64,000 nucleotides of DNA, taken from Halorhabdus utahensis DSM 12940 (GTDB lineage: Archaea > Halobacteriota > Halobacteria > Halobacteriales > Haloarculaceae). The notes under the pieces are model-generated. The model made no database searches. It saw only the letters and a list, made by a program, of their open reading frames with translations, and had not been told where the DNA came from. The stretch spans positions 124,001 to 188,000 of the forward strand of contig NC_013158.1 in assembly GCF_000023945.1 (NCBI RefSeq), written 5' to 3'. The stretch's first letter is position 1, and each line of letters starts with the position of its first letter. Shown here piece after piece: positions 46,465 to 54,750 of this stretch. Both the position numbers and the translations under genes were made by a program.

Positions 46465-46629
46465 ATGACAGACTGCCCGGAATGCGGGGCCGAGGTTTCC
46501 CTGCACGACGACGTCGAAGTCGGAGAGATCGTCGACTGTGCCACCTGTGGCGCGGAACTCGAAGTCGTCGCGGACGATCCCGCGACGCTCGAACCTGCCC
46601 CGGAACTCGAAGAAGACTGGGGCGAGTAA
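46465..46629 (+). CDS. lysW: LysW-type amino-group carrier protein (orphan)
   Basis: A 54-residue protein. LysW binds the amino group of glutamate or aminoadipate through its C-terminal glutamate and shields intermediates of arginine/lysine synthesis. It starts MTDCPECGAEVSLHDDVEVG, has a second CATCGAEL pair (zinc ribbon), and ends EDWGE, the characteristic carrier C-terminus. None of the usual partners (lysX/argX, argB, argC, argD, argE) is adjacent. It is followed by a convergent DUF2249 gene. The small acidic carrier is complete, so it is probably functional in trans or serves another amide-bond pathway. Confidence 0.88.
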   Translation: MTDCPECGAEVSLHDDVEVGEIVDCATCGAELEVVADDPATLEPAPELEEDWGE

Positions 46630-46667
46630 CGGCGCACGCTTTTCACGAAAACAGCGACGACCAGCCC

Positions 46668-46931
46668 TTAGCTTTCGCGCCAGATCACGGTGACCGTCGC
46701 GTCGTCGGTCTCGACAGTGTCGTGAGAGAGGCCGCGATCGTCGAGTTTCGGATAGAGATGCTGTGGCGCGCGATCGTTGAACTGGACCAGTACTTCATCG
46801 TCGGCGAGGTCGGCTGTCGCTTCCAGCGTTTTCTGCAACGGCTTGGGCGGGCCGAGGTTCCGAACATCCAATTCGACTGTCGAGCGGTCGTCAGGGGCCC
46901 CACTCGCCGCCACCGGATCCCCGGCGTTCAT
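46668..46931 (-). CDS. DUF2249 domain protein
   Basis: An 87-residue protein with the DUF2249 core: VELDVRNLGPPKPLQKTLEATADLADDEVLVQFNDRAPQHLYPKL, closing with HDTVETDDATVTVIWRES. This TusA/SirA-like small fold is common in haloarchaeal clusters around denitrification and NO-related genes. Its start overlaps the stop of the 170-residue protein upstream (4 bp), so the two are co-translated. The cysteine of true TusA proteins is absent, so sulfur carriage is unlikely. Confidence 0.85.
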   Translation of the reverse strand: MNAGDPVAASGAPDDRSTVELDVRNLGPPKPLQKTLEATADLADDEVLVQFNDRAPQHLYPKLDDRGLSHDTVETDDATVTVIWRES

Positions 46932-47440
46932 GGCGATTCCTCCGTGAGGGCATCGGGACCTGGAACCTCACCAGTCTCCTCGAATATCTCTTCAAGACGC
47001 TGGAGGTCGTCGTTCAGCGACTCGCTCTCGTTATGCATCTCGGCGACGCGGACTCGAACCAGATCGTAGTCGTGGCGCTCGGCAAGTCCGTTCCAGGCCC
47101 GGAACGCGCCGATCGCCAGGGAATTGCCGGCCGGACAGAACTCCGTCGTCGGCGTGAACTCCGCCCTGAGGACGCCATCTTCGTCGGTGTCCTCGGCGTA
47201 GCGAAAACCGGCACCTGGATGACGCGTATCGAGATTCAGCTTCGCCAGGTTGTAGCCGAAGGTCATGTCGTAGACGCCGCGTTCCTCGAAGACGTCCCAG
47301 GTTGTCGCGTGAAAGTCGACGTGATCTTCGCCCGTCAGGACATCGTGCCCGTCGAGAAATGCGTCCGGTTCAGGTACATTCTCGGGGACAAACGACCCTT
47401 CCTCGTCGAACGTGTCGCTGCTTGCACCGAGTCGCTTCAT
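46928..47440 (-). CDS. Uncharacterised haloarchaeal protein coupled to DUF2249
   Basis: A 170-residue acidic protein from the ATG at 47440 (MKRLGASSDTFDEEGS); the longer frame starts at a GTG (47464). No catalytic motif is certain. The segment FTPTTEFCPAGNSLAIGAFRAWN loosely recalls the TPTxxxCP region of MIP18-type iron-sulfur assembly proteins, but the match is weak. The C-terminus is helical (SESLNDDLQRLEEIFEETG). It is coupled to the DUF2249 gene by a 4-bp overlap and lies after the polytopic membrane protein at 47529-48866 on the same strand. Confidence 0.65.
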   Translation of the reverse strand: MKRLGASSDTFDEEGSFVPENVPEPDAFLDGHDVLTGEDHVDFHATTWDVFEERGVYDMTFGYNLAKLNLDTRHPGAGFRYAEDTDEDGVLRAEFTPTTEFCPAGNSLAIGAFRAWNGLAERHDYDLVRVRVAEMHNESESLNDDLQRLEEIFEETGEVPGPDALTEESP

Positions 47441-47528
47441 GGTTTCACGTATGTCTCCGGGCACCCCGGAGGTTGTGCCGAACGTGTTCGGGCCCGTGGC
47501 CGGTATCGCGAACAGACGCCAGTTGCCT

Positions 47529-48866
47529 TCAGGTGTCCTCGGCTGGCGAAGCCGACAGTGACGGGAACAATACCCTGCCAGGCGAGTGTGGTCCGTGGTG
47601 GTGGACGGTCAACCCGAGGTTGACCGCGACGATGGCAAACCCAGCCCCGATGGCAACGACACCGGCAAGTTCAATCGTGGAACCGACGTCCATGGCTCCA
47701 CCGACGGCCTGAATGAGCACGCCAGCCAGGAGGACGAGAAAGTCTGCGTTCGCGAGCCGACTGTCGTAGAGGTCTTCGACCATCGGGACGGGCTCGTAGC
47801 CGATGCGGTCGCTGTAGGTTTCCAGCCAGACGAGGAAGGGCACAATGTGATACAGCGTCCCGATCACGACGAACCCGAGCACGCCGACCAGCAGGACGGG
47901 CTCACTCGCCGGCGTACCGAGCACTGTCAGGCGGTTGGTCGGTTCGGCCAGCCAGGCTGGGAGTGTCAGGCCCGCCCAGATGACCATGGCGAACGCGACG
48001 ACCGCGTACCGTACGAGGACGGTCGAAATCTCGGTCCGGGATCGAAATAGCTTCCGGGCGAGGGAGAGCCCAACGATGGCGATCGACCCAGTCACGAAGA
48101 CGACACCGATTCGGGCGAGGAGAGCGTGTCCGAGCAACCGCCCGAGAGCCAGGGCCCCGACACCGAACGGGTACGCGACGAGTTCGCCGCGCTGGACGAG
48201 CCTGTCGAGGCGGTCGTCATCTGCCTGTGTGAACATCTCGCCAAGCTGATAGAGCGCACCGATCACCGTGGTCAGAAAAGCCCCGAAGACAGCGACGGTC
48301 ACGTGGGCGCTCGCAACGCCCGTCCGGCTGATCGCGAGACCGATAAACAGCGGTTGGGTATAATCAAGAGAGAGGAGATATCCCAGGATAGTCAGGAGGA
48401 AAAACGCCAGCAGCGCGATGACGAAGTGCCACTCCGTTGTGTCGAGTGGTCGCGCACGCCAGAGCGTCCGCCCGATGTTGTAGACGAACACCCAGATCCC
48501 GGCGACCAGCAGCGTCCCGGCGACGTGCAACATCGTCAGTTCTGCAGTAAGCATCGAGGCGACGAAACCGGCGAGGCCCGCAACGACTAGCCAGGCTTCG
48601 ACCGCACTCAGCCGCTGGGAGTACAGTCCAACGCCGGACCAGACGGGGACGAACTGGGTCATCGCTCCCATGATCGTCACACCGACGAAACCGGCGAGAA
48701 ACAGATGGGTGTGAGCGATCCCCGAGAGTCCGATCGGGTTGTCGACGGTCGCCACAGCGAGTATCTGCCCGGCGAGTGCGACCAGCACCGCAAGGGCCAC
48801 GTGATGCAGCGTTATCGCGACCGGCGGCCCCTTTTCAGTATCTACGTCCTGCGTGAGGGTACGCAT
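47529..48866 (-). CDS. Polytopic membrane protein resembling heme-copper oxidase subunit I / NnrS
   Basis: A 445-residue protein with about 12 transmembrane helices from the ATG at 48866 (MRTLTQDVDTEKGPPV). Conserved histidines appear in GIAHTHLFLAGFVGVTIMGAMTQFVPVW, VASAHVTVAVFGAF, GTLYHIVPFLVW and LTVHHHGPH, as in NnrS-like and oxidase-like membrane proteins. The complete heme/Cu ligand set of a true terminal oxidase is not evident. Its neighbours (DUF2249 and the 170-residue protein) are of types often found near nitrogen-oxide genes in haloarchaea. A role in NO or heme-related stress is suggested, not shown. Confidence 0.7.
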   Translation of the reverse strand: MRTLTQDVDTEKGPPVAITLHHVALAVLVALAGQILAVATVDNPIGLSGIAHTHLFLAGFVGVTIMGAMTQFVPVWSGVGLYSQRLSAVEAWLVVAGLAGFVASMLTAELTMLHVAGTLLVAGIWVFVYNIGRTLWRARPLDTTEWHFVIALLAFFLLTILGYLLSLDYTQPLFIGLAISRTGVASAHVTVAVFGAFLTTVIGALYQLGEMFTQADDDRLDRLVQRGELVAYPFGVGALALGRLLGHALLARIGVVFVTGSIAIVGLSLARKLFRSRTEISTVLVRYAVVAFAMVIWAGLTLPAWLAEPTNRLTVLGTPASEPVLLVGVLGFVVIGTLYHIVPFLVWLETYSDRIGYEPVPMVEDLYDSRLANADFLVLLAGVLIQAVGGAMDVGSTIELAGVVAIGAGFAIVAVNLGLTVHHHGPHSPGRVLFPSLSASPAEDT

Positions 48867-49004
48867 ACGCCCCCGTTGGACCGCTCGCATCCTGCCACAT
48901 TTGCCGAACATATTCGGTAGCGTTCTACCGGCCGCGTCGATGGGCAACGATGGCACGGCGGCCTGCTATCGGGCCAGCGAAAATGGGGAAGGGAGGCGAT
49001 CCGA

Positions 49005-50953: not shown

Positions 50954-53335
50954 ATGAGTGCTATCGAATTCATCCCGCCGGCTGCGCTCGGCGACCGAGA
51001 CGCGGCGATCGTCGACGTCCGCGAGGCGGCGGCGTACACCGACCTCGGTCACGTCCCGGGCGCAGCCAATATCCCAGTCGATCGGTTCCGGGACCCGACC
51101 GGGATCGCAAGGGGGATGCTGCCCGATCCGACGGACCTGGCAACGTGGCTCGGTGAGGCCGGAATCAGCCCCACCGATCCAGTGATCGCCTACGACGACG
51201 ACTGTGGCGTCTACGCCGCTCGCTTCCTGGCGACGCTTGCGGCGTTCGGTCACGATGGCGACCTGTATCTCCTGGACGGGGACTACAGCGTCTACGAACG
51301 CGAGGCAGACGTCACGGTCGAACAGCCGGACGTCGAGCCTGTCGAATACGAACCGGACGACCTCGACGAGACTCTTCTCGCCGACCGCGAGGACGTCGAG
51401 GCGGCAGTCGACGGCGAGGCGATCGTCGTCGACACCCGGACCGAACCGGAGTTCGAGCAGGCCCACATTCCCGGGGCCGTCCAGCTCGACTGGAAGGTTT
51501 TCGTCGACGACGAGACCGGACGACGACGGAGCGTCGAAGCGATCGGGTCAACCCTCGCTGAACACGGCCTCGAACCCGATCGACCGGTCGTCCTCTACTG
51601 TAACACGGCTCGCCGACTGAGTTACGTCTTTGCGGTACTCGAAGACCTCGGCTACGGGGACGTCAGGTTCTACGAGGGGAGCCTCGAAGACTGGCTTCGC
51701 ACCGAGACCGACGACTGGGACCCCGCCGAGATCAAGCGCCGCGTCCGCGAACACGCCAACCAGGGACCAGCGGCGGTCAAAGAAGCCCTCGGGGAGGACG
51801 CCGCGGCGAAGCTCAAGCTGGTCGGCCTCTACGGGCAGAAGCAAAGCGGCTATTTCATGTTCCGGACGAAGATTCCGGGCGGTGTCCTGACAGCCGACGC
51901 GGCCAGGGCGCTCGGGACCGTCGCCGAGGAGTACGCCACGCTGCCCGAAGAGCGCGACCCCAAAAGGTCGCCGTTCGGTGACGGGTACCTCGACGTGACT
52001 ACCCGTCAGGACGTGCAGTTCCACTGGATCCGAATGGCGGACGTTCCCGAGATCTGGGAGCTGCTGGATCCGGCCGGCGTCTCGACGTTCCAGACCGGCG
52101 GCAACTCCGTCCGGAACGTCGTCTCGTGTCCGGCAGCGGGCGTCGCCGACGACGAGGTGCTCGACGCCCGCCCGGTCGCCGAGGCGATCACCGAGGCGTT
52201 TCTGGCCGACCGCCGGTACGCCAACCTGCCCCGGAAGCTGAAGGTTAGCGTCAACGGCTGTCGCGGGGCCTGTGCCCAGCCGGAGATCAACGACCTCGGA
52301 TTCACCCCCGCGCGGAAGGGCGATCGGGTGGGCTTCAACCTCGCCGCCGGGGGCGGCCTCTCGGACAGCCCCCGCGTCGCCAGCGACCTCGATGTCTTCG
52401 TCGAACGGGACCAGGTCGTGGACGTGGTGCGAGCCACGGCGGACCTGTTCATCGAACACGGGAGTTATCTCGACACGGCAGTCAATCGCCTGCGCTTTCT
52501 CGTCGAGGAGTGGGGGGCCGAACAGTTCCGCGAGGAACTACAGCGCTTTGCCCCCTTCGAGTTCGAATCTGCCGGTGAGGACCTTGTCACGCATCACCAC
52601 CCCGACCACGTCGGCGTCCACGAGCAGGCCGACGGAGACAATTACGTCGGCCTCTCGATCCCGGTCGGCCGGATCGACGGCACGGACTTCCGGGGGATGG
52701 CCGATCTCGCGGAATCCTACGGGAACGGCGAGATTCGATTGACCACCCAGCAGAACCTCCTGCTTCCGGACGTTGCCGATGGGGATCTCGACGACCTGCG
52801 GGCCGAACCGTTGCTCGACGAATACTCCCCCGATCCCGGGCCGTTCACACGCGGCGTCGTCACCTGCACCGGTCGGGAGTTCTGTAATTACGCCCTTGTC
52901 GAAACAAAAGCCCGCGCGAAACGCTGGGCCGCCGAACTCGACGAGCGGGTCGACATCGATCAGGATCGGGTCGGGCTGCGCTTCAGCGGGTGTACCGCTT
53001 CCTGCGCCCAGCCACAGATCGACGACATCGGCCTGCGTGGGGAAACTCGCCAGACCGACGACGGAGTGGAGAGTGCTGTCGACATCGCCGTCGGCGGCAA
53101 ACTCAATGTCGATCCACAGTTCGCGACCTGGATCGCACCACGCGTCCCCATCGAGTCCGCCCCCGATGCGATCGAGCGACTGGTCGCGGTCTTCGAACGC
53201 GAAGGGCGCGATTGTGAGCAACTCCACGAGTTATGTCGACTGGCGGACGATGATCGACTCGCGGAGGTACTGCATCCAGCAGCAATAGATCCTGTCGAAG
53301 CCGCTGCAAACGGAGGCCGAACCGATGCCGACTGA
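50954..53335 (+). CDS. Tandem rhodanese fused to a siroheme/4Fe-4S nitrite or sulfite reductase
   Basis: A 793-residue fusion. Residues about 1-120 form a rhodanese domain that looks inactive (VIAYDDDCGVYAARF, Asp at the usual Cys position). Residues about 140-255 form a second rhodanese with catalytic Cys216 (VVLYCNTARRLSYVF). From about 270 on it is a two-repeat nitrite/sulfite reductase. The C-terminal repeat holds the siroheme-bridging 4Fe-4S ligands C638 and C644 (CTGREFCNYAL) and C680 and C684 (FSGCTASCAQPQIDD). The first repeat has a partial copy (GCRGACAQPEIND, C436 and C440) without the matching Cys pair. Rhodaneses carry persulfide sulfur, so sulfite or sulfur-compound reduction fits better than nitrite. 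Its 3' end overlaps the FrhB-type gene by 11 bp. Confidence 0.9.
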   Translation: MSAIEFIPPAALGDRDAAIVDVREAAAYTDLGHVPGAANIPVDRFRDPTGIARGMLPDPTDLATWLGEAGISPTDPVIAYDDDCGVYAARFLATLAAFGHDGDLYLLDGDYSVYEREADVTVEQPDVEPVEYEPDDLDETLLADREDVEAAVDGEAIVVDTRTEPEFEQAHIPGAVQLDWKVFVDDETGRRRSVEAIGSTLAEHGLEPDRPVVLYCNTARRLSYVFAVLEDLGYGDVRFYEGSLEDWLRTETDDWDPAEIKRRVREHANQGPAAVKEALGEDAAAKLKLVGLYGQKQSGYFMFRTKIPGGVLTADAARALGTVAEEYATLPEERDPKRSPFGDGYLDVTTRQDVQFHWIRMADVPEIWELLDPAGVSTFQTGGNSVRNVVSCPAAGVADDEVLDARPVAEAITEAFLADRRYANLPRKLKVSVNGCRGACAQPEINDLGFTPARKGDRVGFNLAAGGGLSDSPRVASDLDVFVERDQVVDVVRATADLFIEHGSYLDTAVNRLRFLVEEWGAEQFREELQRFAPFEFESAGEDLVTHHHPDHVGVHEQADGDNYVGLSIPVGRIDGTDFRGMADLAESYGNGEIRLTTQQNLLLPDVADGDLDDLRAEPLLDEYSPDPGPFTRGVVTCTGREFCNYALVETKARAKRWAAELDERVDIDQDRVGLRFSGCTASCAQPQIDDIGLRGETRQTDDGVESAVDIAVGGKLNVDPQFATWIAPRVPIESAPDAIERLVAVFEREGRDCEQLHELCRLADDDRLAEVLHPAAIDPVEAAANGGRTDAD

Positions 53336-54599
53336 GAAATCACCACAGCCCCGTGCGCCCGCAGTGGGCGACGATCCACGGGAAGCGACGACCGACGTAC
53401 AGCCACCGGACGGAAAAGTGCGCTTTCGCCACCTCGACGAGGCCGTCATCGAGGCCGATCGGTGTGTGCAGTGTGGCTCGTGTGTTGCCGCCTGCCCCTC
53501 GGACTCGATCGGGATCGCCGACAGCGATCGCCGGCCGACCCTCGTGAAGATGTGTACGGGCTGTTCGCGCTGCTGGGACACCTGTCCGCGGGCCGGTCTC
53601 CGGTATGAAAGACTGCCGACGCTCGACGGTGCCGATCCCGAAACGGTCGACGGCGGCATCGGTCCGATCGAGGACGGCTACGCCGCAAGCGCGGCCGCCG
53701 ACGTGGCCGGCGCACAGCACGGCGGGGTCGTCACTGCATTGCTTGCGGCCCTGCTCGAATCCCCCGATGGGATCGACGGGGCCGTTGTCGCCACGGAAGC
53801 AACGGACGGCACCGGACTCGCCGAGCCAGCGCTGGCGACCACGCCGGCCGAGGTTCAGGAATACGCCGGGACGTTGTTCACCCAACCGTTGCAACTTGCA
53901 GCGCTTGAGGAACTGCTTGCTGATGCGGATCTCCCGGCGGACCCGAGCCTGGCACTTGTCGGCACGCCCTGCGTGATCGAAGGCGTGACTGCACTCGACC
54001 GGAGCCCCTACCGCGATGACCGTTTCGACGAATCGCGCCCGCTCGATCACGTCGACCTGACGGTCGCACTCACGTGCACGCAAGCGCTGGACGACGAGGG
54101 GCTCGAACACGTCCTCTCCCGGGAGTACGGCCTCGATCCTGACGACGTGGCGGGCCTGGATCTCGTCGGCCAGGGGATCCGGATCGACCTGACCGATGGC
54201 GGAGACGAGCGCGCCCCCCTCGGGGACTTTCGGGGAGCGATCTTAGACGGGTGTCTGGAGTGTGCCGACGCGACGGGGGGGACGGCCGACCTCACGGTTG
54301 GGACCGTCGGCAGCGCACAGGGGGAGTCGACGGTGCTGGTCAGGACCGAGCGTGGGGCAGCGGCGTTCGACCGTGCCGAGGCTTCACTCGACGCCAGACC
54401 ACTCGAAGCCCTCGCGCCCGTCGAACAGCTCGCACAGTGGAACGCGGATCGCGCCCGAGAGGCGACGGCCCGGGATATCGACCCCGAGGGCGACCTGTGG
54501 ATCCCCTACAGCGCCCACCGGGAAGCGTACGATGACACCGACCGCGCGCCGGTCGCGTTCAACCCGGCGCGCGTTCACCAGTACGAGGAGTGGTGCTGA
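53325..54599 (+). CDS. FrhB-family F420-linked iron-sulfur flavoprotein
   Basis: A 424-residue protein with a dicluster ferredoxin module (C47/C50/C53/C57 in CVQCGSCVAACP and C77/C80/C83/C87 in CTGCSRCWDTCP). The FrhB/FdhB-type domains follow, with QHGGVVTALLAALL, the GTPCVIEGV loop and GCLECADATGGTADLTVG. FrhB proteins bind FAD and pass electrons between coenzyme F420 and iron-sulfur clusters. The gene overlaps the rhodanese-reductase gene and is followed 1 bp later by a tiny protein, so the three form one operon. It most likely supplies electrons to the siroheme reductase. F420 as donor is inferred from the family; ferredoxin is an alternative. Confidence 0.88.
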   Translation: MPTEKSPQPRAPAVGDDPREATTDVQPPDGKVRFRHLDEAVIEADRCVQCGSCVAACPSDSIGIADSDRRPTLVKMCTGCSRCWDTCPRAGLRYERLPTLDGADPETVDGGIGPIEDGYAASAAADVAGAQHGGVVTALLAALLESPDGIDGAVVATEATDGTGLAEPALATTPAEVQEYAGTLFTQPLQLAALEELLADADLPADPSLALVGTPCVIEGVTALDRSPYRDDRFDESRPLDHVDLTVALTCTQALDDEGLEHVLSREYGLDPDDVAGLDLVGQGIRIDLTDGGDERAPLGDFRGAILDGCLECADATGGTADLTVGTVGSAQGESTVLVRTERGAAAFDRAEASLDARPLEALAPVEQLAQWNADRAREATARDIDPEGDLWIPYSAHREAYDDTDRAPVAFNPARVHQYEEWC

Positions 54600-54600
54600 G

Positions 54601-54750
54601 ATGTCCGACATGAGACAGTCCACTGCTGACGAGGAGACGACCGAAGACGCTGCACAGTCCATTGAAGACGACCACCTCGAAGATGTCGAGGACGGGTGTG
54701 GGTGTGCGGAGGTCTGGGAACATCTTTCCGAACAACGCGAGGACACCTAG
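54601..54750 (+). CDS. 49-residue protein with the CAE-W-LSEQR motif
   Basis: The ATG follows the FrhB-type stop by 1 bp. The protein is strongly acidic at the N-terminus and ends in DGCGCAEVWEHLSEQREDT, with two closely spaced Cys. The same motif appears in the protein at 41767-42423. There is no signal or membrane helix. Its position at the end of the redox operon suggests a small partner, for example a metal- or sulfur-handling peptide or an anchor for the reductase. The function is not known. Confidence 0.75.
   Translation: MSDMRQSTADEETTEDAAQSIEDDHLEDVEDGCGCAEVWEHLSEQREDT

Follow-up and report, generated by a model that had tools for sequence, protein, structure and literature searches.

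A rhodanese-reductase fusion is coupled to an FrhB-type gene

Which reaction is catalyzed by a protein that joins two rhodanese domains to a siroheme reductase, and what supplies its electrons? The question is raised by three consecutive plus-strand open reading frames, at positions 50954-53335 (793 aa), 53325-54599 (424 aa) and 54601-54750 (49 aa) of the window, by which we mean the whole stretch of 64,000 nucleotides of Halorhabdus utahensis DSM 12940 (NC_013158.1) that was analyzed. The first two, here called alpha and beta, overlap by 11 bp, and the gap between beta and the third is 1 bp. Pfam searches of the three proteins returned two rhodanese domains, two NIR_SIR + NIR_SIR_ferr repeats, and FrhB_FdhB_N/C with a Fer4 dicluster, and together with the coordinates this bears out the layout given in an earlier note on this DNA: a 793-residue protein, an FrhB-type protein and a 49-residue protein, with the same overlap and gap. 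The features are as follows.

50954..53335, plus strand: alpha, tandem rhodanese and NirA/aSir-type siroheme reductase, 793 aa (Pfam, tree, AlphaFold, Foldseek)
50963..51307, plus strand: rhodanese domain 1, structural; loop Cys only in the window protein and its closest relative
51389..51700, plus strand: rhodanese domain 2, catalytic loop LYCNTARRLSY; Cys216 codon 51599-51601
51800..53203, plus strand: siroheme/[4Fe-4S] reductase module, two pseudo-repeats; predicted coupled-cluster ligands C638/C644 (52865-52885) and C680/C684 (52991-53005)
52235..52243, plus strand: substrate-site lysines K428 and K430 (PRKxK), sulfite-type; NasD-lineage counterpart PRKFN
53325..54599, plus strand: beta, Fsr-N/FrhB-type putative F420H2 oxidase with two N-terminal ferredoxin clusters, 424 aa (Pfam, sequence and modelled fold)
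53463..53585, plus strand: dicluster ferredoxin motif of beta, C47-C87 (Pfam, conservation)
54594..54596, plus strand: Cys424, C-terminal residue of beta (tail PARVHQYEEWC), confined to the fusion clade
54601..54750, plus strand: 49-aa protein with the motif HLxxVxDGCGC[TA]E[IV]WEHLSE of a small-protein family found across Halobacteria (motif survey)

The AlphaFold model of alpha (mean pLDDT 86) was matched by Foldseek to tobacco NiR, M. tuberculosis NirA and tandem sulfurtransferases. C638, C644, C680 and C684, the reductase cysteines named in the earlier note, are invariant in 37 aligned homologues. Both of the rhodanese domains that it described are present, with a conserved catalytic Cys in the second domain only, which is the arrangement of a tandem rhodanese. 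The CNTARR loop of this second domain is found in 32/32 fusion proteins, and its conservation supports a fused rhodanese that looks active.

In beta, the two 4Fe-4S motifs that had been claimed correspond to eight ferredoxin-type cysteines (47, 50, 53, 57, 77, 80, 83 and 87), and a third cluster, that of FrhB, comprises C216, C251, C310 and C313; all 12 cluster cysteines are invariant across 62 homologues. The C-terminal Cys behaves differently, being present in 32/32 FrhB proteins of the fusion clade and in 0/30 other FrhB proteins, and the tail that carries it is modelled at pLDDT <50.

The fusion occurs in 30/391 halobacterial genomes, and in 32/32 fusion loci the reductase stop and the FrhB start are -11 to +3 bp apart; with 30 genomes and FrhB always coupled, the locus is not a product of chance. 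The sister clade B, whose reductase has no rhodanese, is equally FrhB-coupled (27/27 loci where both genes were found). Among 295 genomes sampled from the phylum, no beta-type FrhB was detected outside the order of the window at E<=1e-40, all 13 matching genomes having the same order. Distances among alpha and among beta proteins inside the fusion clade correlate with a Spearman coefficient of 0.93, to which shared species history contributes a part. A search of genome contigs with alpha returned, besides two more Halorhabdus records, nothing but distant NirA proteins of campylobacteria, and identity among haloarchaeal NirA/NasD-type homologues is about 40-49%. The tree joins the fusion clade to sister clade B (96) and separates both from NasD and from the siroheme-operon lineage. 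Two observations had been named in advance as counting against the earlier note, a fusion that lacks FrhB and a reductase inside the NasD nitrite reductase clade; since every one of the 32 fusion loci has FrhB and the tree places the fusion outside NasD, neither holds.

The 49-aa protein is not specific to the operon

The earlier note had suggested scoring across Halobacteria how often the three genes occur together; the fusion and FrhB do so consistently, but not the 49-aa protein, which lies 3' of 8/32 fusion loci and of 0/30 other FrhB loci. The reading frame matched nothing in Pfam or NCBIfam, and its family motif is present in 340/391 halobacterial genomes in many contexts. With the motif so widespread and so few fusion loci having it downstream, we reject the protein as the dedicated partner that it had been taken for: the reading frame is real, yet its product is probably no dedicated component of the enzyme.

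The substrate site is of the sulfite type

The closest relatives of the reductase with solved structures are plant NiR and M. tuberculosis NirA (1e-82 to 1e-67), and Fsr follows at 3e-9. Against the NCBIfam ferredoxin--nitrite reductase equivalog NF007125, alpha scored 380.8 bits, below the 594-bit cut-off, and the homologue in the siroheme operon of the same genome likewise fell short (422 bits). CobG precorrin-3B synthase was rejected as an identity for alpha (195.6 bits against the TIGR02435 cut-off of 234.8 bits). R304, R387, K428 and K430 of alpha coincide with a set of four residues that is described as conserved among sulfite reductases (PMC10229431). At the site of K430, every aligned A, B and C protein has Lys, whereas NasD homologues and wild-type tobacco NiR (N226) have Asn. 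Alpha thus lacks the Asn of the tobacco enzyme, and on the tree it lies outside the nasA-linked clade.

Taking these features together with the gene coupling, we propose that alpha and beta form a two-subunit, F420H2-driven, assimilatory-type siroheme sulfite reductase (aFsr) with a built-in tandem rhodanese, a reading to which we give an even chance of being right in full. F420H2-dependent reduction of sulfite is the most likely activity of the pair, and thiosulfate sulfurtransferase activity is what we would most likely predict for the fused rhodanese.

The relationship to plant nitrite reductases could also mean that the pair is an F420H2-dependent, ammonia-forming nitrite reductase serving assimilation or detoxification, with the rhodanese acting in regulation, cyanide or sulfur repair and not in substrate supply. 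There is a precedent, in that the Fsr-like FsrII of ANME reduces nitrite with F420H2, and not sulfite or thiosulfate (PMC9295563); residue patterns therefore do not settle the substrate. Some fusion loci also lie near nitrogen-oxide genes: nosZ adjoins the fusion locus of Natronococcus occultus, and a NasD-lineage reductase and a transporter lie about 5 kb upstream of that of the closest relative, contexts that speak against sulfite. The latter gene, however, means that the closest relative already has a NasD-lineage reductase of its own, and the invariant Lys, the position on the tree apart from NasD, and the fusion to a sulfurtransferase whose loop is invariant, for which nitrite reduction gives no reason, make this explanation unlikely.

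The electron donor is probably F420H2

The preferred sulfite reductase would draw its electrons from F420H2 through beta, which resembles Fsr-N, FrhB and F420-dependent CODH subunits in both sequence and modelled fold. The same fold also matches plant HCAR, a ferredoxin-using enzyme, and beta scores below the cut-offs of the curated models for F420 proteins, FrhB and FpoF among them. The same sulfite reductase might accordingly have a beta subunit fed by ferredoxin or another donor. We regard this as improbable: the best matches of beta are all F420 enzymes, the genome encodes F420 biosynthesis (CofD) and an F420:NADP reductase (NpdG), and an unfused NirA homologue drawing directly on ferredoxin would need no FrhB.

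Thiosulfate as a candidate source of sulfite

If sulfite is the substrate, its origin has to be considered. Sulfate activation is absent from 79/80 genomes: ATP sulfurylase was found in 1/80, CysD above its cut-off in 0/80, and strong PAPS-reductase matches (E<1e-30) in 3/80. Because these genes are so scarce, the known assimilation route from sulfate is an unlikely source of the sulfite. A thiosulfate-sulfite-sulfide route through separate enzymes was suggested earlier for haloarchaea (PMC3402447), and the fusion provides an independent argument for it. In the mechanism that we propose, Cys216 would accept the sulfane sulfur of thiosulfate and so free sulfite, which R304, R387, K428 and K430 would hold at alpha's own siroheme for six-electron reduction to sulfide. 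Electrons would pass from F420H2 to FAD, to the FrhB [4Fe-4S] cluster and on to the two ferredoxin clusters of beta, presumably within an alpha-beta complex. The sulfane sulfur left on Cys216 would then move to a thiol acceptor, perhaps Cys424, whose restriction to the fusion clade points to a possible sulfur transfer between the subunits.

An extension of this mechanism, which we hold to be doubtful, is a complete cytosolic thiosulfate reductase, in which the flexible Cys tail of beta would reach Cys216 and take up the sulfane sulfur, beta would supply the electrons that free this atom as sulfide, and the chain that carries Cys216 would also reduce the sulfite. F420H2 would in that case pay for the reduction of both sulfurs of thiosulfate, and sulfite would never be set free.

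Sulfur might instead flow in the opposite direction, the reductase making zero-valent sulfur or sulfide and the rhodanese taking it up as persulfide for cysteine or cofactor synthesis. Assimilatory sulfite reductases are reported, in the part of the source available to us, to yield zero-valent sulfur (PMC13188885); rhodaneses are sulfur carriers, and Cys424 could serve as the acceptor here too. A source of sulfite is, however, what these genomes lack, and the fused domain shares its subfamily with a widespread stand-alone haloarchaeal rhodanese, so that we consider such a reversal quite unlikely. Most fusion genomes also hold a stand-alone rhodanese of this subfamily, to one of which the fused copies are 42-57% identical. 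With both forms in most fusion genomes there is no complementary distribution of the kind that a replacement of the separate enzyme by the fusion would leave; given the stand-alone copy, the fused one may have another donor or acceptor.

For the sulfite reductase that we favor, the wider interest is that coenzyme F420 has been described as having no known function in haloarchaea (PMC3403918) and that little is known of haloarchaeal sulfide production (PMC3402447). The operon offers a specific candidate, open to genetic tests, for an F420 function and for sulfide formation without sulfate.

Comparison with known systems

Methanogen group I Fsr (PDB 7np8, 7npa) likewise has a siroheme reductase that is fed by an F420H2 oxidase module with the fold of beta; it is a single chain with a single-repeat, Dsr-related reductase, whereas here there are two chains and a double-repeat reductase of NirA/aSir type. 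The earlier note had inferred that the two activities of Fsr are on separate but coupled genes, which stands for the arrangement, the coupling and the Fsr-N-type input protein, but not for kinship of the reductase to methanogen Fsr, given the match at 3e-9. Ferredoxin-dependent NirA/NasD enzymes share the fold of the reductase module and differ in their separate clade, in Asn where alpha has Lys at the substrate site, and in having neither a coupled FrhB nor a fused rhodanese. Stand-alone tandem rhodaneses (thiosulfate/mercaptopyruvate sulfurtransferases) share the two-domain layout, in which the second domain holds the catalytic Cys; here both domains are joined to a reductase.

The nearest precedent is the pair itself, predicted from sequence in haloarchaea as "aFsr" in 2012, with Halorhabdus utahensis in the tree legend (Susanti and Mukhopadhyay, PMC3448663). 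Its definition, an aSir-type alpha and an Fsr-N-type beta (FrhB with two N-terminal [4Fe-4S] clusters) on separate genes, describes the present locus, where alpha has the double NIR_SIR repeat with CX5C...CX3C, beta is FrhB with two ferredoxin-type [4Fe-4S] clusters, and the genes are linked. That paper has zero mentions of rhodanese, and the parts accessible to us neither separate the two clades nor report enzyme data. A NirA-rhodanese fusion of the same kind was noted in Halobacteria in 2024 as cluster 195.2 (19/529 halobacterial NirA), with a suggested sulfur role; the portion of that source available to us neither connects it with FrhB, F420 or aFsr nor offers a mechanism or an analysis of the active site (PMC11237513). 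The system is therefore not undescribed, contrary to what the earlier note had supposed, and our literature search found no paper that joins the aFsr prediction with the NirA-rhodanese fusion or reports enzyme data. New here are the sulfite-type active-site lysines, the absence of sulfate activation (79/80) and the C-terminal Cys found on FrhB of the fusion clade only.

A rhodanese-reductase fusion is coupled to FrhB at every locus examined

The operon lies in a genome of one contig (3,116,795 bp).

Features of the window and its genome (G000)
50954-53335, + strand: alpha (793 aa), tandem rhodanese and double-repeat NIR_SIR reductase (ORF call, Pfam/NCBIfam)
53325-54599, + strand: beta (424 aa), FrhB/FdhB-type protein with dicluster ferredoxin motif (ORF call, Pfam/NCBIfam)
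54601-54750, + strand: third ORF (49 aa; ORF call), one small-protein family copy; others at G000:C1:1081792, 1767307 and 1989184
46465-48956: LysW-like, DUF2249 (weak TusA similarity) and COX1-like membrane protein genes

The AlphaFold model of alpha (mean pLDDT 86) matched tobacco nitrite reductase and M. tuberculosis NirA, with tandem sulfurtransferases as a separate match; the weaker beta model (mean pLDDT 69) matched structures of F420-dependent CODH, Fsr and FrhB. The fusion was found in 30 of 391 halobacterial genomes (31 copies) and FrhB of the beta family in 126; Halorhabdus genome G078 has neither. Re-annotation by a simple gene caller covered about 70 fetched regions with fusion, B-type (unfused, FrhB-coupled) or other NirA-type genes. 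At all 32 fusion loci examined, the distance between reductase stop and FrhB start is -11 to +3 bp. The three-ORF arrangement described in the earlier note is real, its first two genes being a conserved pair, and a fusion lacking coupled FrhB, which that note would have counted against its reading, was seen at none of these loci. At 27 clade B loci the distance is -11 to +7 bp, nearly all 8- or 11-bp overlaps, and the window genome also carries such a locus (about G000:C1:1298295-1301556).

The third ORF gave no match in Pfam or NCBIfam. Its motif, G[CA]GC[TA]E[IV]WEHLSE, occurs in 340/391 genomes (reversed pattern, 0 in listed genomes), and this unnamed family is Halobacteria-wide, most genomes having 1-4 copies, in contexts including siroheme reductase operons, TrmB-like regulators and glycosyltransferases.

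The fusion reductase stands apart from nitrate-assimilation enzymes

A quick-method tree covered 88 reductase modules; its branch support is SH-aLRT alone, and the bacterial rows are long branches. In it, fusion proteins formed one clade (99) and B proteins another (100), the two being sisters (96). The clade uniting the siroheme-operon lineage (C) with nasA-linked NasD stands apart from both; placement among nitrate-assimilation NasD, the other adverse outcome foreseen earlier, was therefore not found. The FrhB tree recovers the same fusion clade (100), and alpha and beta pairwise distances correlate at 0.93 within it and 0.46 in B, partly through shared species history.

R304, R387 and K428 are unchanged across 37 aligned reductases. 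Position 430 is Lys in every aligned A (fusion), B and C protein, and NasD-lineage proteins carry Asn there, as does wild-type tobacco nitrite reductase. The structure of the tobacco N226K mutant exists, and this mutation favours sulfite. Haloarchaeal NirA-type proteins have in their first reductase repeat a CX3C plus an extra Cys (C392, C436 and C440 in alpha), which resemble second-repeat cluster ligands and are missing from the three bacterial sulfite reductase homologues compared.

A nitrogen-oxide role of the pair is possible, because nosZ adjoins it in Natronococcus occultus and G088, the closest relative, carries genes for a NasD-lineage reductase and a transporter some 5 kb upstream of it. 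The next same-strand gene falls in a DmsR-type HTH regulator cluster at 14/29 fusion loci; in Natrialbaceae-type genomes a DmsR_N/HTH_10 regulator is directly 3' of the pair (e.g. L101 12005-12667), and those inspected have a CxCE motif. Upstream of the Halorhabdus operon, a DUF2249 protein and a COX1-like membrane protein belong to a group encoded on the opposite strand, and the genes at 46465-48956 stay beside the operon in several genomes of this genus. The window genome's C-type reductase (L072 7644-10140) is preceded by a protein of 111 aa that contains Cys and belongs to no known family, and followed by a DUF6360 protein, also present in NasD operon L140.

A C-terminal Cys marks the fusion-clade FrhB

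The CNTARR rhodanese loop is present in 32/32 fusion proteins; the first rhodanese domain has no conserved Cys in those aligned. Counted by eye, 12 genomes, all of one family, have the stand-alone rhodanese within about 11 kb of a clade B pair, which may be plain synteny.

The 12 cluster Cys of FrhB are invariant (62 sequences). Fusion-clade proteins end in Cys in 32/32 cases (tail ...NPARVHQYEEWC) and the others in 0/30, and this tail has very low model confidence, as expected of a flexible one. This Cys appears the most informative new feature, any function being predicted from sequence. Clade B FrhB proteins (L071 8296-9792 and others) are extended at the N terminus by a long acidic stretch, which often includes Cys-rich CGCGxxC motifs and which the fusion clade lacks. 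A third type ends in PSSSS (L088 9059-10342, L118 8801-10084), with no adjoining NirA-type reductase in the fetched stretches (L088 near a contig end).

Comparison with known systems

Among 80 haloarchaeal genomes, ATP sulfurylase was found in one, strong matches to PAPS reductase occurred in three, and no CysD scored above cut-off; CofD and NpdG are above cut-off in the window genome. According to a genome paper (PMC3402447), sequenced haloarchaea lack a sulfate-to-sulfide route, and thiosulfate was suggested there to yield sulfite (sulfurtransferase) and then sulfide (sulfite reductase); that paper also reports growth with sulfate as the only source of sulfur and puts forward another enzyme for it. 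Judged by its predicted domains, alpha unites exactly these two activities. Alpha-beta is probably an F420H2-driven sulfite reductase of some kind; the chances that it is the full thiosulfate version are about even.

The earlier note knew of no such haloarchaeal system, which holds only in part. The pair carries all sequence features given for aFsr, predicted in haloarchaea in 2012 (PMC3448663), and the NirA-rhodanese fusion was already counted in 2024 (PMC11237513). No paper linking the two was found in the open-access literature searched. With the rhodanese fused and a C-terminal Cys specific to its clade, this form appears new and is open to a sharp test. Alpha-beta probably resembles the single-chain methanogen Fsr by mechanism, but the alpha reductase is not an Fsr by descent.
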